Source of the DNA: a virus
Direction: 5' to 3' (one strand)
IMG/VR virus record: IMGVR_UViG_3300018081_000014
Location: 1-29,589 of that record
DNA: 29,589 nt
Shown: positions 9,864-29,589 of the stretch, piece by piece
Position numbering within the stretch: the first letter of the stretch is position 1
Layout: each line of letters begins with the position of its first letter
The notes under the pieces: model-generated
What the model was told of the DNA's origin: nothing
Database searches by the model: none
What the model saw: the letters and a program-made list of their open reading frames with translations, nothing else
Translations under genes and position numbers: made by a program

Positions 9864-10583
9864 CTAGAGATCCACTCGGTCGATCGTGATCCGCGCCGGC
9901 TTGTGCTCCGAGATGTTCCACTCGGTCAGCATCACGCCGGGCTCGGTCGTGCGCGCCCATCGCTTGATCCGCACGCCGGCATTGTTGAAGACCCGCACGT
10001 CGTAGACCGCGTGCGCCGGCGCGTCGGGCTCGAGGGCCGCCTGCACGTCATGGCGGAAGTTCGGCAGGTCGTTCGCGAGCACGCCGGGGCAGTCGGTCGG
10101 GAAGAACTGGCGGTGCGGGAAAATCTGCGTGGCTGCGAAGCTGCCCTCGCGACAGAGCCACGCGAAAAGCCAGATCGCCGCTTCGCGCTGGATCGGCGTC
10201 ATCGGCTCGGCGCCGTTGTGTTCGATCTCTACGCCCGGCTGGCTGTTGTGCTTGGGGCAATGGGCCGAAACCACCATCCCCCCGCGCATCACGGCCGCGA
10301 CCGAGCCGTGCCGTCCCTCGAGGATGTAGCCGCCGCGCGTGACGAGGAAGTTGTGGCCCGAATCGTTCCAGTCGCGGTCGTTCATATGGAAGTTCTGGAT
10401 GCCGCGCGCGTAAGCGCACGACTCCGCATACGTTTCGCCCGGCTCGAAGTTCGGAACGTGGCCGGCTGTGTGATGGAAGATCGCCTGGCTGGGCTTGCCG
10501 GCCGCGACGATCGCGCCCTTGGCCGGCTTGGCTCGCCACTCAGAGCAAGGGATGATTCGGAATGGTCGCGGTGCAGGGCTCAT
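9864..10583 (-). CDS. N-acetylmuramoyl-L-alanine amidase endolysin (239 aa)
   Basis: An Amidase_2/PGRP-type zinc amidase that would cut the bond between muramic acid and L-alanine in peptidoglycan. IFHHTAGH (His37/His38) supplies the first zinc ligand, FPHRQFFPTDCPG the second and third (His157 and Cys165), and SGHNFLV (about 75-81) matches the conserved strand region, with His in place of the usual Tyr. The last 50 residues form a separate small beta domain (VYDVRVFNNAGVRIKRW) that may bind the wall. No signal peptide is present, so release needs a holin, consistent with the membrane genes downstream. ATGA overlap with the tail lysin gene. Confidence 0.9.
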   Translation of the reverse strand: MSPAPRPFRIIPCSEWRAKPAKGAIVAAGKPSQAIFHHTAGHVPNFEPGETYAESCAYARGIQNFHMNDRDWNDSGHNFLVTRGGYILEGRHGSVAAVMRGGMVVSAHCPKHNSQPGVEIEHNGAEPMTPIQREAAIWLFAWLCREGSFAATQIFPHRQFFPTDCPGVLANDLPNFRHDVQAALEPDAPAHAVYDVRVFNNAGVRIKRWARTTEPGVMLTEWNISEHKPARITIDRVDL

Positions 10584-11581
10584 CGTTTCTCATCCTTTCG
10601 TGGATCGCCGTGGTGACGAGCGTAGTGCAAGTGCGCCACGCCGTTCGCCGATCCTGAGTAGCCGATGATCTGGCCGGCTTTTACGCGCTGGCCCGCCTTG
10701 ACCGTGAGCCGCGACAGGTGCGCGTAGTAGAACTCGTCGCCGCCGCCGATGACGTAGACGCGCTGGCCGGCGAAGCGTCCGCTCTTGCCGAGCGTGCCGA
10801 TCTTCGTGCCGATCCTGCCGTCAACGCGCGCTCGGATCGGAGTCCCGACCGGCATCGCTAGATCAATCGCGTTGTCGGACTGCCAGTCGCCGAGTGTGTG
10901 CGTGCCGTGGTACGGGGTTCCGATGACCTTGCCGGCGTAGCCGCCGAACGCGACCGGCCCGCCAGCATCGGGCTGACGGGCCGGGTCGATCTGCGGTGCG
11001 GCAGATGGCACCACTGTACCGCGCTGCATCGACGGAGCTCCCGCGATCAGCTTCATCAACGCCTGCGGGTCGTTCGGGTTCCGCTTCGGGTCTAGAAACG
11101 CCGTCGCGAACGCGCGACTCGTGTCAGGAGGCTTGATATAGACGCTATTTGACTGCGTGCCGTCCTGAACGGGTGCTGCGCTAGGCGGGATACCCCCGGC
11201 GCTCGGAGCTCCTGCAGCGCCTCGCAGGAGCTTCTGAACCTCACTTGCGCGCTCGTCGTAGCGGCCGGGGAACGCCGAACGCTGGACGGCCTGCGCGAGC
11301 TGGCCGGGAGTACCGCGGAAGCCCTTGGCTGTAAGAGCTCGAGCGTGAGCGAGGAACTGGCGGATGTCCGTGGCCGCCGACTCGGACGCCGGCCCCCATC
11401 CCTGCGAGGGCCGCTGTTGTAGGACTCCCTCCGAATCGCGGTCGCCGTAGTTGACGTTGCGGAAGTTGGCTTCGACGGCCATCGCCTCGAGCAGCGCCTT
11501 GAGCACGATCACCGAACCGCCGCGCGCGAGCCGGCGAGCGAGCGAGATGTTCTTTCGCTGCTCGGATGTGTACGTCGACAT
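10580..11581 (-). CDS. Two-domain virion lysin: lysozyme-like plus M23 peptidase-like (333 aa)
   Basis: The N-terminal domain (about 10-110) has ALLEAMAVEANFRNVNYGDR and GVLQQRPSQGWG, a pattern of transglycosylase-like domains in actinophage tail lysins (Glu37 the likely acid). A Pro/Ala linker follows. The C-terminal domain is M23-like: GDWQSDNAIDLAMPVGTPI, ARVDGRIGTKIG, FYYAHLSRLTVKAGQRVKAGQ and ending HLHYA. The second motif (HLH) is intact, but in the first the usual H-x3-D reads D-x3-D, so one zinc ligand appears replaced. It probably opens the wall during DNA entry. It follows the large internal protein gene (TGATG) and precedes the endolysin. Confidence 0.82.
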   Translation of the reverse strand: MSTYTSEQRKNISLARRLARGGSVIVLKALLEAMAVEANFRNVNYGDRDSEGVLQQRPSQGWGPASESAATDIRQFLAHARALTAKGFRGTPGQLAQAVQRSAFPGRYDERASEVQKLLRGAAGAPSAGGIPPSAAPVQDGTQSNSVYIKPPDTSRAFATAFLDPKRNPNDPQALMKLIAGAPSMQRGTVVPSAAPQIDPARQPDAGGPVAFGGYAGKVIGTPYHGTHTLGDWQSDNAIDLAMPVGTPIRARVDGRIGTKIGTLGKSGRFAGQRVYVIGGGDEFYYAHLSRLTVKAGQRVKAGQIIGYSGSANGVAHLHYARHHGDPRKDEKR

Positions 11582-16473: not shown

Positions 16474-17052
16474 TTACCTCAGACCGTAGAGGGAGAATGT
16501 CGAATTCGCTACAAAGTTCACACCTGTATCCTGCAAAAGAGTAAGAGAGGTAATCGGGGCCGTGCTTTGCCACAACGAGCCTAAAACCCTTGTGTTGAGG
16601 TTTGCCCCGTCATAGCCTGTCATCACGCTTAGGGAGCGTTTCAATAGAGGGACCCTGTATGCGGGGAAGACCGTAAAAGAAGCCGAAGGGTTCCCTACGC
16701 CCCAGGCAACAGAGAATCTCGCTGACGTAACAGACGCAGCGCCCCCTGCATTAACCCCCGCCCCAATACCATCAATTTCCTCCCAAAAATAGCCGGTGCC
16801 TGAATCTCCGTTAGCCCTCCAACATGATCCCGTGGCCCCACTGGAACTCTCCTGGTTCGCAATCAGAAACAAATGGGAAAAGTCCTGCGGAACCTGGAAC
16901 GTGACTGAGGCAGCGGCGGCTAGGAGAGTCTGTGTATCGATCAACGCAAGAGGCAGAATGATCGACTTGCCAGTCTCCATAGCCTGAACGAATTGCGTAG
17001 CCCATTGATAGAGCTTCTTCGGGTCGGCGCTGGAAGGACGAGGGAGTGGCAT
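16474..17052 (-). CDS. Putative receptor-binding / fibre-tip protein (192 aa)
   Basis: A short helical start (DPKKLYQWATQFVQAMETG) precedes a beta-rich body (FSHLFLIANQESSSGATGS, then CWRANGDSGTGYFWEEIDG) and strands to the end (TFSLYGLR). The stretch S-H-L-F-L-I plus N-G-D-S-G-x-x-Y recurs at the tips of phage minor tail and fibre proteins with a jelly-roll fold. The local base composition is clearly less GC-rich than the rest of the arm. ATG 17052 overlaps the previous stop as TAATG; a longer start at 17100 would overlap more. Probably the host-contact protein, as the last of four appendage genes. Confidence 0.65.
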   Translation of the reverse strand: MPLPRPSSADPKKLYQWATQFVQAMETGKSIILPLALIDTQTLLAAAASVTFQVPQDFSHLFLIANQESSSGATGSCWRANGDSGTGYFWEEIDGIGAGVNAGGAASVTSARFSVAWGVGNPSASFTVFPAYRVPLLKRSLSVMTGYDGANLNTRVLGSLWQSTAPITSLTLLQDTGVNFVANSTFSLYGLR

Positions 17053-17828
17053 TAGGAGAAGGCCGTGATCCAGGCGTAATGGACGGAATGGCGATCCCAA
17101 AACACATCTCGGACGGACGGGTCGACGGTCATATGGATTTCGTGGTAGCTCCGCGGCGTGACGACTAGGTGAGCCTTGGTCATAGCCGGCGCGTGCTTAG
17201 AGAAGCCAATCCAGTAGAACGAAGTCCCGAGCCCGCCGCTGTAGTTGAGCGCCTGAATGGTGGTGGTGGCAATCGACGTTAGGGCGGTATCGCCGCTGTC
17301 TACGTTCTGAAAATTGAGCCGGAACTCCAACAGGGAGGAGTTGATGCCGAGATTGGCAGAAACGGTCATCAGGCCGCCGGCGTGAAGCAGCAAGTGGAAG
17401 CCCGCGTCGAAATACGCCTTGGCGTTCGGGATGAACCCGTTAGGCATAGTCGTCACGGGGAAACCCGCGCTGACCGACCAATCCCTGCTGTTGTCCGCGA
17501 CGTGATACGTGAGTACCTCGTGCTGGAAGATCAGAGGCTTCCAGTCCGAGATGAATAGATCGGGCTTGACTACCCCACTCTGGACGTGATCCCTGTTCGT
17601 GAGCTGAGCGATCTGGAAGGGAGTAGAGCCCAGCCGGATGAGCCCCAGCCGGCCCTCGTCCGGCGACAGCCCCGCGATCGTGGTTCCCGTCACCGTGGGG
17701 AAGTCGGCCGCGAGATTCGTATCGTCCAGGGAATTGACCACCGTTTCGATCTGAGCTCGGCGGTTGTTTACGTCGTCCGCGAGGACTTCCTCACCCGTGG
17801 TCGGATCGTCGACGGTAAGGCTAGGCAC
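17052..17828 (-). CDS. Fibre-like structural protein, third of three paralogues (258 aa)
   Basis: The N-terminus holds VNNRRAQIETVVNSLDDTNLAA, the anchor or trimer motif shared with the two upstream genes. The middle has PLIFQHEVLTYHVADNS and IPNAKAYFDAGFHLLLHAGG, matching FIPDFKAFYDAGLRPM in the 18525 gene. The rest is beta-rich. GTG at 17828 is chosen because it overlaps the upstream stop by eight bases; the ATGs at 17894 and 17891 lie deep in that gene. Likely part of a tail fibre or spike built from three diverged copies. Confidence 0.65.
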   Translation of the reverse strand: MPSLTVDDPTTGEEVLADDVNNRRAQIETVVNSLDDTNLAADFPTVTGTTIAGLSPDEGRLGLIRLGSTPFQIAQLTNRDHVQSGVVKPDLFISDWKPLIFQHEVLTYHVADNSRDWSVSAGFPVTTMPNGFIPNAKAYFDAGFHLLLHAGGLMTVSANLGINSSLLEFRLNFQNVDSGDTALTSIATTTIQALNYSGGLGTSFYWIGFSKHAPAMTKAHLVVTPRSYHEIHMTVDPSVRDVFWDRHSVHYAWITAFS

Positions 17829-18540
17829 TGACCCACCTGAGATAGGCGTTGAGCTGGCTGACAGTGCCGGTGCCGGTAGTGACGGCGACATCAACCACGA
17901 AGATCGCCGAGCCTCCCGTATCGGTCGGGACGGTCTGGATGTCGCAGGTGTGCCAGTCCGAAATCTTGTAGGTCGGGGTGGTGTTGTTGTGAGTAATCCC
18001 CGGCTCGAGGTACGTCGTATTGCCGAACCCGGCGCCAGCGGGAATCTCTACGATCCGCACCCGGACCTTGGTAGTGCCCCCTGCCGGCCCGGTCAGCTTC
18101 GCGCCGATCCAGACCTGCGGCCTGACGCCCGCGTTGTAGAGAGAGGCGTTGTTTGTGAGCCAAGCCTCGTTGATCTCCGTGTTGGCCGGAACGTCGACGT
18201 AGCTCGTGTTCGTGACTGAGAGGTCGGCCTGCTGGTGGAACCAAAGGACCGGAGCCGATACCCACTTCCCGAGCACGTCGTCGTAGATGAACCGGATCGT
18301 CTGATAGTTGGCCGGGCCGTTCATGTTCACTCTCAGTGCCGCGACCTTGCCCTTGCGGACCGCAAGGCCCACCAGCGAAGTCACGGGAACGGCGGTGACG
18401 GGGGAGAAGTTGCTTTTGTCCAGGTTCCCGTTCACCACAGCCTCGATCTCCGAGTGCATCGTGGCTTCATCGGACTCCACCGGCAAATAGGGGTTCGCGT
18501 TCCTGCGGGTGATCGCGAGAGCGGTCAATTCTGCCTCCAT
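17821..18540 (-). CDS. Fibre-like structural protein, second of three paralogues (239 aa)
   Basis: It carries SEIEAVVNGNLDKSNFSPVT near residue 30, then GKWVSAPVLWFHQQADLSV, NNASLYNAGVRPQVWIGAKL and GITHNNTTPTYKISDWHT, each with a counterpart in the 18525 protein (GKYVSDP, FVSQHEAT, AFYDAGLRPM, THNTDTATYKSVDW). Such beta-rich modules following an N-G-x-L-D-x-x-N-L anchor are typical of phage fibre and spike subunits. Its start overlaps the upstream gene by 16 bases. No catalytic residues are evident. Confidence 0.65.
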   Translation of the reverse strand: MEAELTALAITRRNANPYLPVESDEATMHSEIEAVVNGNLDKSNFSPVTAVPVTSLVGLAVRKGKVAALRVNMNGPANYQTIRFIYDDVLGKWVSAPVLWFHQQADLSVTNTSYVDVPANTEINEAWLTNNASLYNAGVRPQVWIGAKLTGPAGGTTKVRVRIVEIPAGAGFGNTTYLEPGITHNNTTPTYKISDWHTCDIQTVPTDTGGSAIFVVDVAVTTGTGTVSQLNAYLRWVSA

Positions 18541-19208
18541 CGCATTTCAAAGTACGAATCCGAGAACCCACAGCCCGTGGAGGTCACGCTGATTTGAACC
18601 TCCATGTAGGCGTGGGCATCAGTCGGGGCAGGAGAGATGGCGACGAAAGACCAATCGACAGACTTGTAGGTTGCGGTGTCCGTGTTGTGAGTCAGGGCCG
18701 GGCCGACGCCTACGGAGCTCCCCACCGTATCGTTGGCGGCGAACTCGAAGAACTCCACTCGGATTGAGCCGGTGACGGCGCCCGAAGGGTCGATCTTGCT
18801 GATCCCCGCCACCATCGGCCGCAGCCCCGCGTCGTAGAAAGCTTTGAAGTCGGGGATGAAGACCTTGGGCATGACGGCCGCGCTCATAGCTACGGGGCTC
18901 GCCGAAATGGTGGAGGTCGCCTCGTGCTGGCTCACGAAGAACTGCGGGTCCGAAACGTACTTGCCGATCGTCGCGTCATAGGTAACGAGCAGCCGAGATG
19001 AACCCGCTTGGAGCAGGCGGGTAGCCCCCGCCCTGGCAGGTTCCCCCGCAAGGGTCGTTACCAACTTGACGGGAGCGTTAGCGGCGAGGTTGGCGTCGTC
19101 GAGCGTGCCGTTGACGAGCGCCTCGAGGGCCGCCGCCGGCAGGTTGATAAGCGTGTCGCCGGAGATGGCCTGTGCCTGCTTGACGCGCGGGAGGTTGAGC
19201 GCGGGCAT
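18525..19208 (-). CDS. Fibre-like structural protein, first of three paralogues (227 aa)
   Basis: After MPALNLPRVKQAQAISGDT comes EALVNGTLDDANLAANAPV (about 29-47), the clearest copy of the motif shared by the three genes. A beta domain follows (SRLLVTYDATIGKYVSDPQF, then VFIPDFKAFYDAGLRPMV and RVEFFEFAAND) and ends SDSYFEMRWRQN. ATG at 19208 overlaps the nozzle gene's stop (TGATG). The position directly after the nozzle suggests the virion-proximal part of the tail appendage. Confidence 0.65.
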   Translation of the reverse strand: MPALNLPRVKQAQAISGDTLINLPAAALEALVNGTLDDANLAANAPVKLVTTLAGEPARAGATRLLQAGSSRLLVTYDATIGKYVSDPQFFVSQHEATSTISASPVAMSAAVMPKVFIPDFKAFYDAGLRPMVAGISKIDPSGAVTGSIRVEFFEFAANDTVGSSVGVGPALTHNTDTATYKSVDWSFVAISPAPTDAHAYMEVQISVTSTGCGFSDSYFEMRWRQN

Positions 19209-20713
19209 CAGGCATCCCCCAGCGGGATGAAGTCGTAGCGCACGCCGTAGAGGGAGAACGCGCCCTCCTCCTCCTGGCCGGCGCCGACGATAGTCGGCTT
19301 GTTGAATGAGATCGTCGAACTCTCCCGGACGAGGAACGAGGCCGACCGCACCGGCCCCCACGAGTAGAGATCCACGTACCCGTAGCCGCCGGCCGGGCCG
19401 TACTCCCCCGGAACGCCGCCGCCATAGAAGATCGGCGTCCCACCGACAGAGACCGAGCGAACGGCGCCGTCGCCACGCTGGAAGTCCTTGGAGATGTAGA
19501 AGTCGAAGTCGCCGCGCGCCGTGACCTTCGTCCTGCGGAGCTGCGCCAGCACGTCCCGCTCCGGTCGAATCCAGTGGCCGCGGAAATGAGCGGCGATCGC
19601 GGCCCCTCCGTCCGAGCCGCCCTTCTGCACTTTGCGGATCTGCGCCTTCGAGCCGACCGCAGCCGTGTGCGCGAGGAAGGTCTCCTCGATCGCGCCCTCG
19701 GAGCGGGCGAACGCGACGGCGCCGTAGGAGTGGGGAACCATCCAGCCGGCGACCGGATCGAACTCGATCGTCAGATCGTTCACGCTCGAGCCCACGCGAG
19801 AGAGTGAGATCAGGAACGTGTCATTCGTGATGCCGACCGTCCACCCGTCCCGGAGCGCGAGGTTGAGCATCGTCGGGCCAAAGAGCGGCCGGATCTTCGC
19901 CGACGCCTCCTCGAGCGCGTTGTTGCCGTCTGTGATCCAGATGCCCTCCTCGTTCACGCAACAGACGATCCCTTTGAGCGAGTTGACCGCCAGCGGGCCG
20001 GATGCTCCGTGGTTCGCGTCGATCGTCGTGTACGAGCCCGTGTTCGAGTCGTTGATCCTGTAGGTGGAGTGGTCTTTGAAGACGAGCAGGTTCCCGATCG
20101 GCGCAGCGATGGCTGCCCTCAGAAACGCCGTGTCCTTGTCCCGGATGTTGACCGAGTTGGGGTAGGCGTTGCCGACCGCGGGGTTCGAGAAGCCCAGGAT
20201 CGAGGAGACGCCGGAGCCCGTCCAAAACCTGTTCTGCCAGACTGCACCGAAGGTTGCAGGGCCAGCAACGGCGGCAGTGATACTGCCAGACCCAGTATAG
20301 GTCTGCACTCCTTCTGACCCTACGGCTGAAATAAACACGACCGCATCGGCAGTTCCGTCGCGAAAGTCCGCAATCGTTCTACGGGCGGCAGAAGGGAACG
20401 CGTCCACTGGCCCAGTCCTAGTGATCTCCGTCCAGGTTCCAATTGCTGTCCGCCGCCACAGTTTCGTGCCAGTCTGCAGGAGGAACTGCCCGAGGAAGTT
20501 CGACCACCCGAGATTGGCCGGCGCGGCGTTGTTGAGCGAGCCCTGCGCTTCCGCTTCGTTGCCGAGCCGCTTCACAGCCGCACCCCGCTCCGTCAAGATC
20601 ATGTTGAGCATGTCAGGCGACTCGTTCGGGGCGAGCTCGGTCGCCTCGGCGATCAGGTTCAGGCCGCCGGCGAAGTCGTGGAACTCGCGCTTCTCGAGCT
20701 TACCCGCCGGCAT
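19208..20713 (-). CDS. Tail nozzle / tail-tube-like beta-propeller protein (501 aa)
   Basis: The start (KREFHDFAGGLNLIAEATEL, PNESPDMLNMILTERGAAVKRL) is the usual opening of podovirus nozzle-type proteins: F-x-G-G-L-N, then N-E-x-P-D-x-x-N, then a K-R-x-G turn. The middle reads as beta-propeller blades (IAAPIGNLLVFKDHSTYRI, GIVCCVNEEGIWITDGNNAL, TNDTFLISLSRVG). The C-terminal third is a beta domain with many aromatics. It lies directly after the adaptor gene (14-base overlap) and before the fibres, the order known in short-tailed phages. It would form the end of the tail channel. Confidence 0.75.
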   Translation of the reverse strand: MPAGKLEKREFHDFAGGLNLIAEATELAPNESPDMLNMILTERGAAVKRLGNEAEAQGSLNNAAPANLGWSNFLGQFLLQTGTKLWRRTAIGTWTEITRTGPVDAFPSAARRTIADFRDGTADAVVFISAVGSEGVQTYTGSGSITAAVAGPATFGAVWQNRFWTGSGVSSILGFSNPAVGNAYPNSVNIRDKDTAFLRAAIAAPIGNLLVFKDHSTYRINDSNTGSYTTIDANHGASGPLAVNSLKGIVCCVNEEGIWITDGNNALEEASAKIRPLFGPTMLNLALRDGWTVGITNDTFLISLSRVGSSVNDLTIEFDPVAGWMVPHSYGAVAFARSEGAIEETFLAHTAAVGSKAQIRKVQKGGSDGGAAIAAHFRGHWIRPERDVLAQLRRTKVTARGDFDFYISKDFQRGDGAVRSVSVGGTPIFYGGGVPGEYGPAGGYGYVDLYSWGPVRSASFLVRESSTISFNKPTIVGAGQEEEGAFSLYGVRYDFIPLGDA

Positions 20714-21816: not shown

Positions 21817-23076
21817 CTAGCTCGCCCGGTTGAGGTTCTGCCAGCGGACGATCTGGCGACACTCGTGAGCTCCGAGCTGCCAATCGTCAACCAACCATGC
21901 CTCTACGTTTCGCGAGCGGCTCGTCGCCGTGCCGAACCGCTGCCACATAGAGCCGGTGAGCTCGTCCCAATCGGGACCCTTCGTGTAGCCGTACATCTGC
22001 AGGACTTCCTTCGTGACGCCGGTGAGGGCTCCGCGCTGGTGATCGAAGTCTCCGATCAGGGTCATCCCGTTGTACGTCGGCCCCTCGAACCCGGTGTCCA
22101 GCTTGCCCCGCGTGGGAGCAAACCTCATTTGGTTGTAGAAGCTCGACTGATACAGAAGGATGACTCCGGGATCGCCGACGATGAAGTCGACGTTCTCGAG
22201 GTCGGTGCGCTCGCCGAGGGTCAAGATCCCGGCGTCGAGGATGGAGAGATCCGGGTCGGCCGCCGACGTGAGACCGTTGCGTCCGTCCGTTCCCTGCCAC
22301 CACTCGTTCGGCCCCTTCGCGATGTCCTCGAAGGTTCCGGTGACGGCGCCGATCTGCTGCAAGCCCTGGCCCGCGTTGAAGATTGGGCCGGCCGCCACGG
22401 AGTCCTGGATGTAGATCGCGCAGGTGGCCGTGAACGTCAGCGAGCCCGAGCCGCCGCCGAAGGCGCCGGTCAGGAACGTGACAGTCGCCACCGTGCCGTC
22501 CGCCGCCAGCGTCACGGAGTCGATCTTGCGCTTGAGCCCCTGCGTGACAGGGGAGCCCGTGGCCGGCTCGATTACGTCGACGATGCGACCCTTGTAGAGC
22601 TGCCGGCGAGCAGCTCCGGGATCGAGAGTCGCAGTCAGCGACGTGCCGCCGCCGGAGACATCGGCGAGCTTGCCCGTGCCTTCGCCGTTGAGCTGCTCGT
22701 TCGCGGTCCGGGCCATCGACTCGTTCGCCCGCTGAGCCTTCGACGCGACGGCCTTCGCAGCCGAGTTGTCCTCGGTCTGCTTCATCAGCTCCGGGGAGAT
22801 CGAGACCGGGAGCGCCTGGTGCGCCATGCGGATGTGCGCCTGGCTCGTGTCGTCGACCTGCGGGATGGTGACGTTGCCACCCTCCGCCAGCATGTGCGTG
22901 CCCTGCAAGGGCGCGGCGAAGATCGGCACTCGGACTTGGTTGCCCGAGAAGTTCTTGCGCGACGTGTCGCGCTGTAGCTCCGTGAGCAGCACACGGCCTT
23001 TTGGATAGGCCTTCTGTAGTGGCCCTCGGAGCTCGTACAGGAGGTCAGTCCAGCCAGTTGTGAGCTGGTCAGCCAT
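21817..23076 (-). CDS. Major capsid protein (419 aa)
   Basis: Start MADQLTTGWTDLLYELRGPL, then GRVLLTELQRDTSRKNFSGN, RVPIFAAPLQGTHMLAEGGN and HQALPVSISPELMKQTEDNS. This is the N-arm, E-loop-like and long-helix order of HK97-fold capsid proteins. Later parts include ILDAGILTLGERTDLENVDF, ILLYQSSFYNQMRFAPTRG and the ending CRQIVRWQNLNRAS. Length, a good ribosome site (AAAGGAG on the minus strand), the preceding acidic scaffold gene and the hairpin just downstream all fit. No N-terminal prohead protease or long propeptide is evident. Forms the icosahedral shell. Confidence 0.88.
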   Translation of the reverse strand: MADQLTTGWTDLLYELRGPLQKAYPKGRVLLTELQRDTSRKNFSGNQVRVPIFAAPLQGTHMLAEGGNVTIPQVDDTSQAHIRMAHQALPVSISPELMKQTEDNSAAKAVASKAQRANESMARTANEQLNGEGTGKLADVSGGGTSLTATLDPGAARRQLYKGRIVDVIEPATGSPVTQGLKRKIDSVTLAADGTVATVTFLTGAFGGGSGSLTFTATCAIYIQDSVAAGPIFNAGQGLQQIGAVTGTFEDIAKGPNEWWQGTDGRNGLTSAADPDLSILDAGILTLGERTDLENVDFIVGDPGVILLYQSSFYNQMRFAPTRGKLDTGFEGPTYNGMTLIGDFDHQRGALTGVTKEVLQMYGYTKGPDWDELTGSMWQRFGTATSRSRNVEAWLVDDWQLGAHECRQIVRWQNLNRAS

Positions 23077-23818: not shown

Positions 23819-24151
23819 TTACTTGTACGGCGAGGCGATCGCCTCGACCACGATGCTCTGCGCCGAGAGGTTCGTCGCGTTCGAGATTTCCGCGCCAGAT
23901 GCCACGTCCCGAACGCGCAGCTTCGGCGCTGTGTATTCGTTCGCCGCCGGGATGTATTCGACCGCGTGGCCGGCCGGCGTGGTGACGCCGACGCCGAGCA
24001 GCGCGCTCAGCCGGTTGCCGATGCCGAGGATGGCGAGCGGCACCGTGTCGCCGTTCGTCGCGTAGGACGACGAGAGGCTGATCTGGACGATGGTCGAACG
24101 CCCGTAGGGCCGGACATTCTTCTTCTTGATGACGGCTGTGCAGTTGCCCAT
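23819..24151 (-). CDS. Small beta-rich structural protein, capsid-associated candidate (110 aa)
   Basis: Short basic start (MGNCTAVIKKKNVRPYGRST) then strands (TIVQISLSSSYATNGDTVPL, ILGIGNRLSALLGVGV, YIPAANEYTAPKLRVRD) and a final segment SIVVEAIASPYK. The G-D-T-V-P-L turn and length recall head decoration or stabilisation proteins, which are often encoded beside scaffold and capsid genes. AAGGAG precedes the ATG. Function is inferred from position only. Confidence 0.6.
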   Translation of the reverse strand: MGNCTAVIKKKNVRPYGRSTIVQISLSSSYATNGDTVPLAILGIGNRLSALLGVGVTTPAGHAVEYIPAANEYTAPKLRVRDVASGAEISNATNLSAQSIVVEAIASPYK

Positions 24152-24456: not shown

Positions 24457-25083
24457 CTAACGCTCGTGCTTGCCGGGGTGATTCGGGCGCCACTCCTGCC
24501 CCGTCGCGACGAACGGGTTTTTCTCCGCCAGCACGTTGTCGGCGAGCCCGAGCACGTCGGCGATGTGAAGGTCGAATCCGAAGTTGAGCGCGTCGGCCAG
24601 AGCGACCGGATCGGCGAGATGGATGTCTCGAGCGAAGGCGAGCGCGTCGACGAGCGGGACGGTCTCCGCGATCCCGAGCCCGCGCTCGAACGTGAGCGCG
24701 TCGGAGAGGGAGAGGGTGTCATTGATCGTGATCCCCTTGCCTGTCTCCGTGGACGCGTTGTCGGCGAGGCCAACCGCATCGTTGATCGTGAGCTCGAGCC
24801 CACGCGAGGCAACGATGTCATCGGTGATCGGGACGGCGGTCTCGTCAATGTGGATCTCCCGGTTGAACTTCGTGATCGCGTCAACGAGCGCAACTACACC
24901 CTCGTCCAGATGAATGTCGCGGCCGAAGCTCAGCGCGTCAGAGAGGGCAAGCGTGTCGGCTGGATGGATGTCGCGCCCAAAGGAGAGCGCGTCCGAGAGA
25001 GCGAGCGTATCGTCGATCGGCACTTGCCAATTGGTGCCGGCAGCCGCCGTCGACGGCCGAAAGAGGGTGAGCAAACCCCCCAT
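24457..25083 (-). CDS. Tandem-repeat structural protein, consensus xDTLALSDALSFGRDIH (208 aa)
   Basis: After 22 residues (MGGLLTLFRPSTAAAGTNWQ and VP) the protein is nine tandem units of 18-21 residues: DTLALSDALSFGRDIH twice, then diverged forms such as DEGVVALVDAITKFNREIH, INDAVGLADNASTETG, INDTLSLSDALTFERGLG, AETVPLVDALAFARDIH and ADPVALADALNFGFDLH. Each unit has D at the start and an L-x-D-x-L core, suggesting a stacked strand or solenoid rod. The last 17 residues are different (FVATGQEWRPNHPGKHER). ATG directly abuts the upstream TAG. A virion surface fibre or spacer is plausible from the neighbours; no family is recognised. Confidence 0.7.
   Translation of the reverse strand: MGGLLTLFRPSTAAAGTNWQVPIDDTLALSDALSFGRDIHPADTLALSDALSFGRDIHLDEGVVALVDAITKFNREIHIDETAVPITDDIVASRGLELTINDAVGLADNASTETGKGITINDTLSLSDALTFERGLGIAETVPLVDALAFARDIHLADPVALADALNFGFDLHIADVLGLADNVLAEKNPFVATGQEWRPNHPGKHER
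24517..25017 (-). repeat. Nine tandem coding repeats of 54-63 bp
   Basis: Units encode 18, 18, 20, 21, 20, 18, 18, 18 and about 16 residues. The first two units (24910-25017) are the closest at protein level, with 16 identical residues, yet differ at many third positions, so the array is old enough for silent drift. No identical spacers or palindromes are present, so it is not a CRISPR array. Confidence 0.85.
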
Positions 25084-25842
25084 CTAGCCCTGCGTTGGGT
25101 AGTAGCCTGCGCCGACGTAGGGGTAGGGGTCCTCGGCCGCTCCGCCGGCGGCAGGGGGATGGATGGCGATACACCATGCTGTCCAGCCAGTAGGGGTCGC
25201 GATCCCCGTTGCTACCGCACCCGGATCTTCGCTGGCAGCGTTCAACTGCCGGTCACCGATCTTCATCTGGACGTTGGTCGTCGCCGCGCCGGCCGTGCCG
25301 CTAGTAGCGTCGGAGCGGTCTGTGTAGTTCGTCGCGGGGGTCTTAGAAGTAGGCTGCTCGCCGTCCCACATACCGACCCAAAGCCAGAGGTAATCCTTGG
25401 CTCCCCCGGTCGGCGTGCAAGCCGTGGGGTCGACGTTCTGAGAAACCGCTACGGCGACCGTGCTGCTCTGCGGAGCTCGGGTGGCGGGATTCTCAGCGCC
25501 AGTGATGCTCGCTGTCTCCGCGACGAACTTGAGCGTAGCGCCGTGGGTGACGGTGATCGACGTGCCGCCTTCGGTGCCGGCCGCGAGAGTATCCCGGTAG
25601 CCCCAAAAGCTCACGTCATCCGAGGCATCGGAGGAGTCCTGAACGATCGTCCATCCGCCGCCGGTAATGGCGATCGCGCCGGCTCCTGCGCAACGCCCAG
25701 CGATGAAAAGCAGCGAACCCGCCGAGACAGTTGCGGGCAGGTTTACAACGTGGCTGCTGGCGGCAGTCGCACCGTTGACGGCCGCTCCGCCGTTGACATC
25801 ATCTGCGGCCGGGCGGAAACTTTCGATGGCCGGAAAGGCCAT
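25084..25842 (-). CDS. Beta-sandwich (jelly-roll-like) structural protein (252 aa)
   Basis: The pattern is that of phage surface proteins with a jelly-roll fold: LPATVSAGSLLFIAGRCAG, ITGGGWTIVQDSS, DDVSFWGYRDTLAAGTEGGT, ITVTHGATLKFVAETASITG, YLWLWVGMWDG, and a late strand GWTAWCIAIHPP. The end EDPYPYVGAGYYPTQG is Tyr-rich. Its TAG abuts the ATG of the repeat protein. Such proteins decorate heads or form appendages; which one here is unknown. Confidence 0.65.
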   Translation of the reverse strand: MAFPAIESFRPAADDVNGGAAVNGATAASSHVVNLPATVSAGSLLFIAGRCAGAGAIAITGGGWTIVQDSSDASDDVSFWGYRDTLAAGTEGGTSITVTHGATLKFVAETASITGAENPATRAPQSSTVAVAVSQNVDPTACTPTGGAKDYLWLWVGMWDGEQPTSKTPATNYTDRSDATSGTAGAATTNVQMKIGDRQLNAASEDPGAVATGIATPTGWTAWCIAIHPPAAGGAAEDPYPYVGAGYYPTQG

Positions 25843-26061
25843 TTAGTCCGGCGTGGCAGTTGCCGTTACGAGATAGCGGCCGAGTGCGGCCGCGGGCATT
25901 ACCCACAAGTGGGTGCCGTTGGTCAAGCTCCAAGCTCCAAGGGCGGCCGCTACTGCCGCTTGCTCGCTGATGGCATCGACGCGAAAAACGTCTAGCGCGG
26001 TGACGAGGCCGAGCGGCGGAACATCCCCTCCGCGCGGGTAGATGACGAGATACTGAGCCAT
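25843..26061 (-). CDS. Small hypothetical protein (72 aa)
   Basis: Not recognised. MAQYLVIYPRGGDVPPLGLV starts with a strand, then FRVDAISEQAAVAAALGAW forms a helix, then strands TNGTHLWVMPA and RYLVTATATPD. The strand-helix-strand layout with an 'A-x-S-E-Q-A-A-V' helix resembles small phage proteins that accompany fibre genes. Its TAA abuts the next ATG. A good ribosome site (GGAGG) precedes its own ATG. Confidence 0.6.
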   Translation of the reverse strand: MAQYLVIYPRGGDVPPLGLVTALDVFRVDAISEQAAVAAALGAWSLTNGTHLWVMPAAALGRYLVTATATPD

Positions 26062-26070
26062 GACTCCCTC

Positions 26071-27249
26071 CTAGATTTCGTAGTACCAAACGGTGATCGT
26101 GAGCGGGTTGATCGCCGCAGAGGTCGTCAGGTGGATCTCCTCGTCCACGGCTCCGATGAAGGGGACCGCGGGCGAGAGAACCACGCCGGGCTTGAGAGTC
26201 GCCGAGGGGGCAAACTCGCCGTCGAAGATGGCCTTGTCCGTTCCCCGTGAGTAGGTCGTGTCAGCGTTCGCCCCGAACCAAACCTGGACCGCGCCGGCCA
26301 CTGTCCCGCCAACCTGGATCTGAACGCAGGTGACGACGAGCTTCTTGCCGGACGTGACGGTGAGAACGTCCGAGCCGGTCTGCGTCGTCGTCGTCTGGAC
26401 GGTCTTGGAGAGAAGGGTGTAAGGCGCGCCGTCGACCGCCGCATGGAGCTGCGGGGCGCTCATCATCGCCCCGCGCTTGGTCAGCCACGCAAAGACCGCA
26501 TCGCCGTCTGTCGAGACTTCGGTCGGAGCCGCCGACGAGGCCCGGCCGCCGACCGTAACGGGGTTGTCGGCTACCGCGGCGTCACTCGCCGCCATCCCGC
26601 CGACACGAACATCGTCCTGCGCTACGTCGAGGTTGCGGATGTCGAGGTCGACCGCATCAACTGTGAGCGAGCTGGCGCCATCGTCGACCGTGAGCGAGCC
26701 GCCGTTGTCATCGACGGAGACAGGCTCGTTCTCAATACGGACGAGCCGGGTGCTATAGGTCGCGATGCTGGCGAGGGCGATCGAGCCTGACGTAAACGCC
26801 GAGCAGCGGACGCGGAAGTGGGAGTAGCCCGACGTACCGATCGTCCAGTTGCCGATCGCCGTCGCGCTCGAGTCGATCGACCCGTCCGAAGCGTCGATCG
26901 CGCCAACGGAGAAGTAGTCCGTGCCGCCGTCGACAGAAGCCTCGAACTGAACCGTGCCAACGAACGTGCCCGAGATCTCGAAGCCGACAGCCCCGCGGCC
27001 TTGCAGGACGATCGTAAGCGCCTGCCCTGTCCCGGTGAGGCTCGCCGACTGCGAGGCCGGCGCCATATGGTTGTTGACGATCCCGCCCTGGACCTGCAAG
27101 CCGCTCGAGTCCGCCACGATCGGCGTGCGTGAGCCGTCCGCCGATTGCGCAAGCTTGACGATCTGGACGTGCTTGCCGGATCCGTCGTCGTCGGTCGCGA
27201 CGTTGTAGTCGGTCAGCGAACCGTTGTCGACAAGAATGTCGTCAGTCAT
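26071..27249 (-). CDS. Multi-domain beta-rich structural protein (392 aa)
   Basis: N-terminal part with D-rich turns (VATDDDGSGKHVQIVKLAQS), a beta domain around ALTIVLQGRGAVGFEISGTF and VQFEASVDGGTDYFSVGAID, then a D-rich linker with a short repeat (SLTVDDGASSLTVDAVDLDI) and a C-terminal beta domain (KKLVVTCVQIQVGGTVAGAV). The V-S-V-D-D-N-G-G-S-L-T-V-D linker is a sequence I associate with phage structural proteins. Probably an appendage or head-fibre component encoded between portal and capsid genes. Confidence 0.65.
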   Translation of the reverse strand: MTDDILVDNGSLTDYNVATDDDGSGKHVQIVKLAQSADGSRTPIVADSSGLQVQGGIVNNHMAPASQSASLTGTGQALTIVLQGRGAVGFEISGTFVGTVQFEASVDGGTDYFSVGAIDASDGSIDSSATAIGNWTIGTSGYSHFRVRCSAFTSGSIALASIATYSTRLVRIENEPVSVDDNGGSLTVDDGASSLTVDAVDLDIRNLDVAQDDVRVGGMAASDAAVADNPVTVGGRASSAAPTEVSTDGDAVFAWLTKRGAMMSAPQLHAAVDGAPYTLLSKTVQTTTTQTGSDVLTVTSGKKLVVTCVQIQVGGTVAGAVQVWFGANADTTYSRGTDKAIFDGEFAPSATLKPGVVLSPAVPFIGAVDEEIHLTTSAAINPLTITVWYYEI

Positions 27250-27252
27250 CGC

Positions 27253-27759
27253 TTAGCCGATCGTGACGGTCCAGGTGATCTTGAGCGTGTCGAGCGCGCC
27301 CTTGTCGATCAGCGTGTAGACCGCGCGGGCGAGCATCGTGCCGGCCGAGGCCGCGTTGAAGATCCCCGCTTCTCGGAGCGCCGAGTTGGTCCCGTCGCCT
27401 GCGGCCCAATCGCCAACGTAGGTGATGACGTTGCCGGCGTCGATCGCGGACGTGAGCGCGTTGCGGTCGATCGCTGCGCCGAGCGTCGTGTCGCCGGCGG
27501 CCGGCGCGGTCGAGCTCGTGCCGATCTCCATCCAGCCCATCGCGGCCCCGCCGGGTGACGTGGAGAGCCGGTCGGCGATGTGGTTCTTGCCGGCGGTGAC
27601 GACGAGGTTGTCAACCTCGCGGGTTTCCTTGAGCTCGCCGTCAGGGCCGAATAGTTCGACGAGAACGTGGCCGCGGATCGGAACGTCGTCCTCGAGGACT
27701 CTCCCCCGGCCTACGCTCAACGCGATCTCATCGGATACCGGAACGATGTCCTCGATCAT
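27253..27759 (-). CDS. Phage structural protein, putative fibre/tail accessory (168 aa)
   Basis: The body has GHVLVELFGPDGELKETREV, NLVVTAGKNHIADRLST, MGWMEIGTSSTAPAAGDTTL, TYVGDWAAGDGTNSALREAG and the ending LKITWTVTIG. This order (G-x-x-x-E-x-x-x-x-N-L-V-V-x-x-G, then I-G-x-x-x-x-A-x-x-x-x-x-T-x-L, then E-A-G-I-F-N) is a recurrent pattern in phage appendage proteins. ATG overlaps the portal stop by four bases. Which virion part it belongs to is not shown. Confidence 0.65.
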   Translation of the reverse strand: MIEDIVPVSDEIALSVGRGRVLEDDVPIRGHVLVELFGPDGELKETREVDNLVVTAGKNHIADRLSTSPGGAAMGWMEIGTSSTAPAAGDTTLGAAIDRNALTSAIDAGNVITYVGDWAAGDGTNSALREAGIFNAASAGTMLARAVYTLIDKGALDTLKITWTVTIG

Positions 27760-29589
27760 GGCTTTTTCTCCTTTGCCTTTGCCTTCTGTTGCTGGTCTTG
27801 AAGCTCGAGCTGGCGCGCGTGCTCTGATTCGGCGGCCTGCTCACCGGCCTGCGCCTCCTGCTGGCCGACCGCATCCTCGAGGTTGGCCTGAGACTCCGCC
27901 TCCTCTTTCGCGGCGAGCGTAGCGAGCAGGTCGGCGAGCTGCATGGTCTCGGCGATGTGCGCCTCGAAGATGTGCCAGGTCTCCTCGTCGTAGGCCATCT
28001 CCGCCTCGATCTGCGCCTCACGGTGAATCGGGATATGGACGGCCGGGTCGTCGTACTCGAGCGGCTTCGGGAGGTCGCCGGCGAGCATCCGCGAGTTTTC
28101 CCAGCGCGCCTTCTGCGTCTGAATGTCCTTCTGAGACTCCGGGAAGTCGAGCGGCTTGCCCGCCTCGAGCGAGCCCTTGAGCCAGCCCAGGTCGAGATTC
28201 GGTGGCTGCCCTGTGGCGGCTGCCTCCTCCTTGTCGGCGCGCCAGAGATCCATCACGAGCTGGATTGAGGCTGCGTCCGAGCGCGGCTTCGCCGAGTCCG
28301 AGAGCTCGGTCAGGAAGAACTCCGGCAGCTTCTCGGCCTGGAACTGGATCGCCTCGGCGTGGCCTTCCTCCCCGGCGATCGCCATCAGCTTGTCCTGCGG
28401 CCAGTAGTTGCGGATGTCATAGACCGAGAGCTCGGTCAGAGTCGCGACGGCGCCCTGGAAATCCTCGAAGATCGGGTCGAGCTTGACGCGATCCTTCTCG
28501 GCGCGCAGGTTGAGCTCGGCGAAGGTTGTCTCGCGCGTCGGCGCCTCCCCGGTCGAAACGGCGTGAATCCCCATCGCCGTTTGCAGGTCCTCCTTGAGTC
28601 CGTCCTTCGAGCGCCAGAGCGACTCGTGGACGGGCACGCCGGAGACAGCCTGTGGCGCGGGGGTTCCGCCAGACTGATACCGGACTACCTCGAGCGGCGT
28701 TTCGGTCTGCTTGATGTTGGACTGCTCGTCGGCGAGGACATACGGCTGGCCGCGGTCGATCGTGATCGCCTCTTGCTGCAGCCGCTTGTTGTATGTCCGC
28801 TGGATGCCCTTGCCGGGTTCGATCAGCCCGCGCCCCCAAAAGCGGCCCTCGATCCGCCAGTAGTGGAAGTAGACGATGCCCGAGTGGTAGTCACTGTTCG
28901 GGCGCTTGTAGGGGAGCTCGAGCCGCGGCTCCTCGAGCAGCTTGTCGCCAGCGTAGGTGATGACGCGGCCGCGCGCGTACTTCGTCGACGGCCGCTCGAA
29001 GTAGGTGATCTTCGCGACGTAGCCATCGAGCTTCCCCGGCGAGCCGGTGTCGGAGTCAGGCTCGTTCTCGAAGCCAACCTCGATCGTGTCTTTGATCCCG
29101 AGTTGCTCGAGCGCGGCGAGTGGTTCCTCTTTCAGACCCTTCGCGCGATCGCCGTACCGTTCGATCAGCTTGTCGATCGAAACGGCTTCGACGATCGCTT
29201 CCCACGGAAAGAGCTCCTCGTCCTCTACGCTCGGCGGCACGAGCAACGCGAAGACGGAGCGTGGATGCCAACAGATCCGGCCCTCGCGAATCGCCCGGAG
29301 CTGCGGCCGGCGGCCTTCGACCGCCTCCTCGGCCATGTACGCCCGCGCCTTCTCGCCGTCGTAAACCGCCTGCCCGTCCTTGACAGGCATCTCGCCGAGC
29401 TCCTTGCCCACGGTCGGATCGAAGTAGCACTGGATCGCGGCGGTGCCGTCGATAATCAGCTTGCGCTTGATCTGCGCGAGCTTGTCAGCCGCTCGCCACT
29501 CGTGATCCCAGCCATAGGCAGCGCCGAGTTGGCGGTCTTCGCGAAGTCCTCCGAAGGGATGTCCTCGCGGCGAAAGAGGAGATTCCGGC
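27756..29589 (-). CDS. Portal protein, 5' end outside the window, probable frameshift near 29528
   Basis: The in-frame part runs to the right edge, beyond a GTG at 29411 that is internal. Portal features: KLIIDGTAAIQCYFDPTVGK (clip entry), ARGRVITYAGDKLLEEP, HSGIVYFHYWRIEGRFWGRG, QRTYNKRLQQEAITI (long helix), GTPAPQAVSGVPVHESLW and MGIHAVSTGEAPTRETTFAE, then a helical C-terminus very rich in Gln, Glu and Ala (about the last 80 residues). Between about 29530 and 29589 the annotated frame turns Pro/Arg-rich, while another frame reads LLFRREDIPSEDFAKTAN. This suggests a one-base deletion in the sequence. The portal is the DNA channel at one capsid vertex. Confidence 0.85.
   Translation of the reverse strand, partial: PESPLSPRGHPFGGLREDRQLGAAYGWDHEWRAADKLAQIKRKLIIDGTAAIQCYFDPTVGKELGEMPVKDGQAVYDGEKARAYMAEEAVEGRRPQLRAIREGRICWHPRSVFALLVPPSVEDEELFPWEAIVEAVSIDKLIERYGDRAKGLKEEPLAALEQLGIKDTIEVGFENEPDSDTGSPGKLDGYVAKITYFERPSTKYARGRVITYAGDKLLEEPRLELPYKRPNSDYHSGIVYFHYWRIEGRFWGRGLIEPGKGIQRTYNKRLQQEAITIDRGQPYVLADEQSNIKQTETPLEVVRYQSGGTPAPQAVSGVPVHESLWRSKDGLKEDLQTAMGIHAVSTGEAPTRETTFAELNLRAEKDRVKLDPIFEDFQGAVATLTELSVYDIRNYWPQDKLMAIAGEEGHAEAIQFQAEKLPEFFLTELSDSAKPRSDAASIQLVMDLWRADKEEAAATGQPPNLDLGWLKGSLEAGKPLDFPESQKDIQTQKARWENSRMLAGDLPKPLEYDDPAVHIPIHREAQIEAEMAYDEETWHIFEAHIAETMQLADLLATLAAKEEAESQANLEDAVGQQEAQAGEQAAESEHARQLELQDQQQKAKAKEKKP

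Follow-up and report, generated by a model that had tools for sequence, protein, structure and literature searches.

What part does a protein built largely from one short tandem repeat play within a block of viral structural genes? The question was raised by a fragment, 29,589 bases long, of uncultured viral DNA (IMG/VR class 'linear'), referred to here as the window, in which an earlier sequence-only reading had singled out a protein, here called P0001, as a possible rod or spacer on the particle. We found its reading frame at exactly 24457-25083 and on the minus strand (the strand had not been given), which is also the strand of the late genes. From the portal gene onward, the minus-strand order is a phrog_5417 protein, ORFs of 392, 72 and 252 residues, P0001, ORFs of 85 and 110 residues, a probable scaffold and the major head protein.

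27756-29588, minus strand: portal protein, P22-like (Pfam PF16510, E 4.7e-9; phrog_156), truncated by the window end
27253-27759, minus strand: phrog_5417 partner gene, with a weak match to phrog_4176 'tail fiber protein' as well
26071-27249, minus strand: 392-aa ORF without a family match
25843-26061, minus strand: 72-aa ORF of unknown function, abutting the next gene (TAA/ATG) in the same frame
25084-25842, minus strand: 252-aa partner, probably a beta-sandwich domain, without a family hit
25081-25086, minus strand: TAG/ATG junction, with the repeat gene starting in frame directly behind the stop codon of the upstream gene; in locus L070 both parts form one chain
24457-25083, minus strand: repeat protein P0001, 208 aa, ATG start, TAG stop
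23819-24151, minus strand: 110-aa ORF, characterized by location and by similarity to genes of loci L003 and L004
23100-23795, minus strand: acidic 231-aa ORF just before the capsid gene, a probable scaffold by position and composition
21817-23076, minus strand: major head protein (phrog_14242, E 1.8e-12)

The earlier placement of the protein in a virion region found support: in the window it lies between the portal and major capsid genes, and in relatives directly after the capsid gene. Several neighbors have counterparts elsewhere. The 252-residue protein is 37% identical to the product of the gene immediately before the array gene in L029, the major head protein is 37% identical to that of L070, where it is located just before the repeat module, and the first 44 residues of the 110-residue ORF are 40% identical to post-portal genes of L003 and L004, which have a related portal. 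The place of the 392-residue ORF is taken in L090 by a gene of unknown family without sequence similarity to it. The portal relatives (L002-L005) have the portal in common, and three of them also the capsid gene, and the module is absent from them; a scan of viral contigs with the window capsid protein gave no relative, the capsid homologues having come via other loci. The genes of 72, 252 and 208 residues (24457-26061, minus strand) all lie in one frame, with TAA/ATG and TAG/ATG junctions and single stops between them. Elsewhere on the same strand (17052-19211), three adjacent genes carry a fiber-like N-terminal motif (NGNLDxxNF, NGTLDDANLA and NSLDDTNLA, respectively) and are probably tail fiber paralogues.

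P0001 itself comprises a short N terminus (MGGLLTLFRPST...), a nine-unit array and a short charged C-terminal tail, with the array accounting for 164 of its 208 residues (79%).

24520-25011, minus strand: tandem array, residues 25-188, nine units of 17-21 aa, the last partial
24724-24783, minus strand: the only 20-aa GKG unit of the P0001 array (NDAVGLADNASTETGKGITI); seven close relatives likewise have a single copy each

The units start at residues 25, 43, 60, 80, 101, 121, 139, 157 and 175 and measure 18, 17, 20, 21, 20, 18, 18, 18 and (partial) 14 residues; the nine tandem repeats described earlier were thus recovered, at lengths of 17-21 rather than 18-21 residues, and the consensus quoted for them, [IL]xDTLALSDALSFGRDIH, closely matched some of the units only. 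The self-alignment score of the protein was 261 (196 without unit 1), whereas 60 shuffles averaged 31.5 (s.d. 6) and never exceeded 55. The core motif [DEN]x(h)x(h)xD was present seven times; 2000 shuffles contained it 1.2 times on average and at most 6 times. Units 1 and 2 were identical at 16 of 16 residues yet differed in 9 of 16 codons, all silently, so that they do not represent a fresh copy; this is the pattern expected from purifying selection and agrees with the selection on the protein that had been proposed. Consistently, the G+C content at codon position 3 (0.83) was coding-like, as in the neighboring genes.

We scanned 2.9 million viral contigs with a degenerate DNA pattern for two consecutive units. 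This yielded 41 stretches, about 25 of which were judged by eye to be true arrays, the remainder being low-complexity frames; L007-L009, L013, L035, L037, L044 and most of L048-L063 were set aside as ALPDTLALPDT- or SVSDTVSVSD-type low-complexity reading frames. A related-locus search of viral contigs with P0001 itself gave no match, because the back-translated peptides of a divergent repeat were too specific. Arrays were carried by about 25 or more uncultured viral contigs, at about 9 to 27 or more copies: 9 in the window and in L047, 10 in L030, about 13 in L041, 16-18 in L016 and L018, about 21 in L029 and 27 or more in L021. Even the close relatives L016 and L018 were distinguished by a 22-residue insertion, which corresponds to about one unit. 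This comparison lends support to the earlier idea that the protein is tunable in length. Eight of the best relatives matched P0001 with E values from 1e-8 to 2e-32, and an alignment of P0001 with the array stretches of 14 relatives had nine invariant Asp columns and seven nearly invariant ones. The frame thus recurs in relatives, and no match to a non-repeat fold emerged, these being the two points on which the sequence-only reading had staked itself.

Searches of Pfam, NCBIfam and the PDB sequences of solved structures with P0001 gave no family match. PHROG 12240, of unknown function, was matched by residues 42-189 (E 7.9e-5), a weak match of a kind whose profile scores are inflated by repeats and which covered only profile positions 9-133 of the full-length 387-position architecture; relatives matched the same profile better, down to an E value of 3e-16. 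The claim that the protein belongs to no named family was therefore nearly right, PHROG 12240 being the one weak exception. PHROG 12240 and the array of Methanosarcina virus MetMV (E 1.6e-14) share the D-x-h-x-h-x-D type of repeat with P0001, which is a short array on its own, whereas the MetMV array has a second domain similar to the KPP25 structural protein ORF005. Among 50,697 named phage records, several family members used as queries gave marginal matches only (MetMV and one Synechococcus phage), searches with five other family arrays gave none or one marginal match, and a literature search found no paper on the repeat. Nearly absent from named phages and recurrent in uncultured ones, the repeat has apparently escaped study.

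The anatomy of the unit became clear from 70 family units of 18 residues. Position 1 was D in 64 and E in 6 of these, position 7 was D in all, as required by the search motif, and position 13 was R in 38. Large hydrophobic residues occupied positions 3, 5, 9, 11, 15 and 17 (63-99%), the even positions held chiefly A, S, T or G, and Gly was confined to position 14, where about half of the units had it. The 18-residue unit of the relatives is three hexads of the form [D/D/R]-x-h-x-h-x; positions 9 to 18 lie outside the search motif, and the hexad pattern there is therefore independent of it. The 20-residue units have two extra residues in the third hexad. In L047, L030 and L070, the hydrophobic alternation was reached by 0 of 500 shuffles; in P0001 it was modest (10 of 500 shuffles at period 2 and 2 of 500 at period 6), and by the same shuffle test it was absent from the more distant L090 protein.

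The array also keeps regular company. The phrog_5417 gene of the window is 64-76% identical to genes upstream of the repeat proteins in L018, L030, L041 and L029, and the layout of a phrog_5417 gene followed by an array gene is present in the window (27253-27759 and 24457-25083). When we scanned with the phrog_5417 gene alone, ignoring the repeat, 80 loci were obtained, 15 of which contained arrays or array-like repeats by a criterion that 0 shuffled ORFs reached. Arrays were present in five of the eight most similar loci, and of the remaining three, two break off no more than about 1.2 kb from the phrog_5417 gene. Conversely, among the loci obtained through the repeat, about 11 carried phrog_5417. 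The array usually follows a lectin-/jelly-roll-like domain or a separate gene in that position. In most close relatives it forms the C-terminal part of a chain that starts with another domain, probably a beta-sandwich, which in L030 is Laminin_G_3-like (E 1.5e-4, short of the curated cut-off). Preceding the fused protein of L070 is a polysaccharide-lyase-like gene (PF14099, E 4.3e-6, just under the curated cut-off). The window, L029, L074, L067 and L090 encode the array on its own, as a separate gene.

We therefore favor, with a probability of roughly 0.58, the reading that P0001 is the shaft part of a virion appendage, a solenoid rod made of three-sided beta-solenoid turns and associated with a glycan-binding partner. 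Each 18-residue unit would form one turn, the hydrophobic residues at positions 3, 5, 9, 11, 15 and 17 would fill the core, and Asp, Asp and often Arg (positions 1, 7 and 13) would stand at the three corners, stacked into ladders. Small residues (A, S, T or G) would occupy the alternate outward positions, and the units of 20-21 residues would accommodate a loop at one corner. The rise of a beta-solenoid is about 0.48 nm per turn, so that nine turns would give a rod, presumably rigid, of roughly 4-5 nm, and a longer one in relatives with more units. In the particle, the rod would cooperate with a beta-sandwich protein that probably binds glycans, encoded here by the separate upstream gene and in many relatives forming the N-terminal domain of the same chain, while the phrog_5417 partner would be a likely fiber-base or adaptor protein. 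With the glycan-binding partner at one rod end, fused or separate, whole turns could be added or lost, altering the reach and leaving both ends unaltered; the solenoid fold of P0001 itself, its presence in virions, the glycan ligand and the polarity of the rod are putative in this scheme, while the repeat, the hexads of the relatives, the partner association, the domain fusions and the changes in copy number are observed.

Where such a shaft would be attached is suggested by gene order. In nine loci (L067, L068, L070, L072, L073, L075, L076, L077 and L090), phrog_5417 is preceded, at a distance of no more than about 2.5 kb, by a major capsid gene. Genes for the head protease, terminase and portal come after the array gene in L030 and, by eye, in L047 as well, and in the window the module sits between portal and scaffold. 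These neighbors favor a head appendage, for which we consider the odds to be somewhat better than even. An appreciable though smaller chance attaches to the alternative that the protein belongs to a tail fiber or receptor-binding complex, as a mobile host-recognition cassette that sits in the head block here. BcepGomr, HHTV-1 and phiAxp-1 carry their phrog_5417 homologues downstream of the tape measure gene, surrounded by tail genes, which speaks against a firm assignment to the head; moreover, phrog_4176 carries the name tail fiber, the N-terminal domain of L024 matches the minor tail proteins phrog_553 and phrog_2106, the modules of L113, L032 and L017 are tail-located by appearance, and the KPP25 protein resembled by a domain of the MetMV array protein is annotated as structural and lies near a putative tail protein. 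However, the closest relatives of the partner gene have the module after the major capsid gene, the L030 module precedes the head protease and terminase genes, and the window possesses other fiber-like genes (17052-19211), well after the capsid gene.

The predicted fold draws mainly on a relative. AlphaFold2 modeling of P0001 as a monomer, a check that had been proposed earlier, gave a mean pLDDT of 46.7 (15-sequence alignment) and one long strand per unit, and the model was not folded. In contrast, the fused protein of L070 (468 aa, 12 rows) reached a pLDDT of 65-84 over most of its array, with strands at 352-354, 357-360 and 364-366, at 370-372, 375-378 and 382-384, and at 390-392 and 395-398. 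This array is predicted to be a three-stranded solenoid with an 18-residue period, and its three strands per turn agree with the hexads. Over 118 residues, P0001 and the L070 array are 47% identical (E 2e-25); another alignment runs on into the L070 linker. The likening of the repeats to stacked solenoids thus finds agreement in the hexads of the 70 units and in the L070 model but not in the model of P0001 itself. When random sequences are repeated perfectly, AlphaFold2 predicts spurious beta-solenoids with confidence, a bias that may matter only for near-perfect repeats (PMC11795689); since the units of this family are imperfect, the worry is lessened, not removed, and we regard the L070 model as evidence rather than proof. 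Foldseek found no significant solved structure for the L070 model, its best rows including carbohydrate-binding modules at E values of 0.2 or worse, probably via the N-terminal domain. Structure matches in a viral library, despite good E values, had large rmsd and TM-scores no higher than 0.2 and were discarded, and a profile match to the Hap autotransporter passenger (E 0.005), which hints at a beta-helix, was too weak to use.

It is possible, if somewhat unlikely, that the array is instead an obligate trimer or another oligomer of beta strands and not a monomeric solenoid, which would still make it a shaft. Phage fiber shafts are usually trimers, and a low-confidence model with one long strand per unit is what would be expected for a chain that needs partners; the alternation of hydrophobic residues is strong as well (period-2 power of 62.8 versus 0.9 in L047 and of 6.2 versus 0.9 in P0001). 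On the other hand, the L070 array attains its confidence and its regular three-strand period when modeled alone, and three corner hexads directly account for a unit length of 18.

We also considered P0001 as a cut-off piece of a larger lectin-repeat protein, with the TAG at 25084-25086 being real, a sequencing error or read through. The upstream and repeat genes abut in one frame, and L070 has both parts in one chain, in whose linker an internal MGG...DWEVPIDDTL aligns with the P0001 start MGG...NWQVPIDDTL, so that the two genes of the window match one fused L070 protein in layout. The 252-residue protein has no direct similarity to the L070 N-terminal domain, and the correspondence of that half is therefore positional only. 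A split gene appears improbable in view of the separate repeat genes of L029 (ATGA overlap, other frame), L074, L067 and L090, the last of which starts MSLLLLFR, like MGGLLTLFR in P0001. Furthermore, the preceding gene pair abuts likewise, and abutting genes are thus not unique to the TAG/ATG junction, on either side of which the codon composition is coding-like. Finally, a flexible, ion-binding or glycosylated surface tether, to which the many Asp residues, the S/T-rich alternate positions and glycosyltransferase genes near the module in L029, L071 and L046 might point, is very unlikely, given that the regular hydrophobic core positions and the predicted solenoid speak against disorder and that no glycosyltransferase was recognized in the annotated part of the window.

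Returning to the solenoid shaft, we compared it with known systems. The three hexads and 18 residues per turn predicted in L070, and lacking in the P0001 model, recall the left-handed beta-helix; the family hexad [D/R]xhxhx nevertheless differs from [LIV]-[GAED]-x2-[STAV]-x in placing D or R where a small residue is needed, and a search of P0001 for the Pfam hexapeptide (Hexapep) gave no match. The RTX calcium-binding beta-roll is built of GGxGxDxUx nonapeptides, whereas the array sequence contains no GGxG, and the triple beta-spiral shaft, trimeric with a repeat of about 15 residues and a conserved Gly/Pro turn, differs from the 17-21-residue period of P0001. Similarly, the delta head fiber of Orsay virus is a pentameric beta-bracelet with an 8-residue strand-loop period (PMC7565637); it resembles the proposed rod in being a repetitive beta shaft with strand-loop periodicity that projects from the capsid, but not in the length of the period. 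Phage fiber and decoration modules with carbohydrate-binding domains are alike in having a lectin- or polysaccharide-lyase-like domain beside the shaft and appendage genes within the structural block, and differ in that the shaft repeat of this family is without a described fold. Repetitive beta shafts as such are known from phage particles, and the repeat of P0001 lies outside Pfam and NCBIfam. If the proposed reading holds, a rod joined to glycan-binding domains and kept beside a conserved partner would offer a clear illustration from nature of phages adjusting, through the count of 18-residue turns, how far a surface appendage extends, and a compact rod whose length is set by its turns would be a possible building block for protein design.

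Exactly one GKG unit of about 20 residues was present in each of P0001, L070, L067, L030, L047, L029, L018 and L016, with GKG followed by [V/I/T/S][T/S][I/V][N/D/A]D; L074, otherwise similar, was without it. The position of this unit within the array is variable. Arrays grow and shrink yet keep one such unit, which suggests a particular role, for example as a joint or a binding site. A bolder version of the solenoid reading, doubtful when taken as a whole, would make the repeat a new three-sided beta-solenoid class with Asp-Asp-Arg ladders, serving as the shaft, variable in length, of a head fiber that displays glycan-binding domains in many uncultured phages and possibly in archaeal viruses, with the conserved GKG turn as a fixed hinge, joint or binding site.

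Some further observations concern the surroundings of the family. The glycosyltransferase genes near the array gene (GT group 1 and family 2) lie on its downstream side in L029 and L046 but separate it from the partner gene in L071; their products could act on the S/T-rich outward positions of the array. In the window, an amidase gene (PF01510) and an M23 peptidase gene (PF01551) lie side by side at 9864-11581 on the minus strand and likely encode lysis or cell-wall entry enzymes. A contig of Firmicutes bacterium CAG:791 (L050, positions 1-1471) has overlapping frames with dense SLADAL-type six-residue repeats, which may be a hexad-only relative or a low-complexity artifact. Three of the phrog_5417 loci (L140, L142 and L143) encode, just upstream of phrog_5417, large proteins with divergent D-rich repeats of the type DTFDMADxxVLEPGxRP, perhaps a distant branch. 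In the chromosome of Actinomadura sp. WMMA1423 (L061), within a probable prophage, a phrog_5417 homologue (29%) adjoins an array protein in which the array follows another N-terminal domain, and the host group of the repeat family may thus include actinomycetes.
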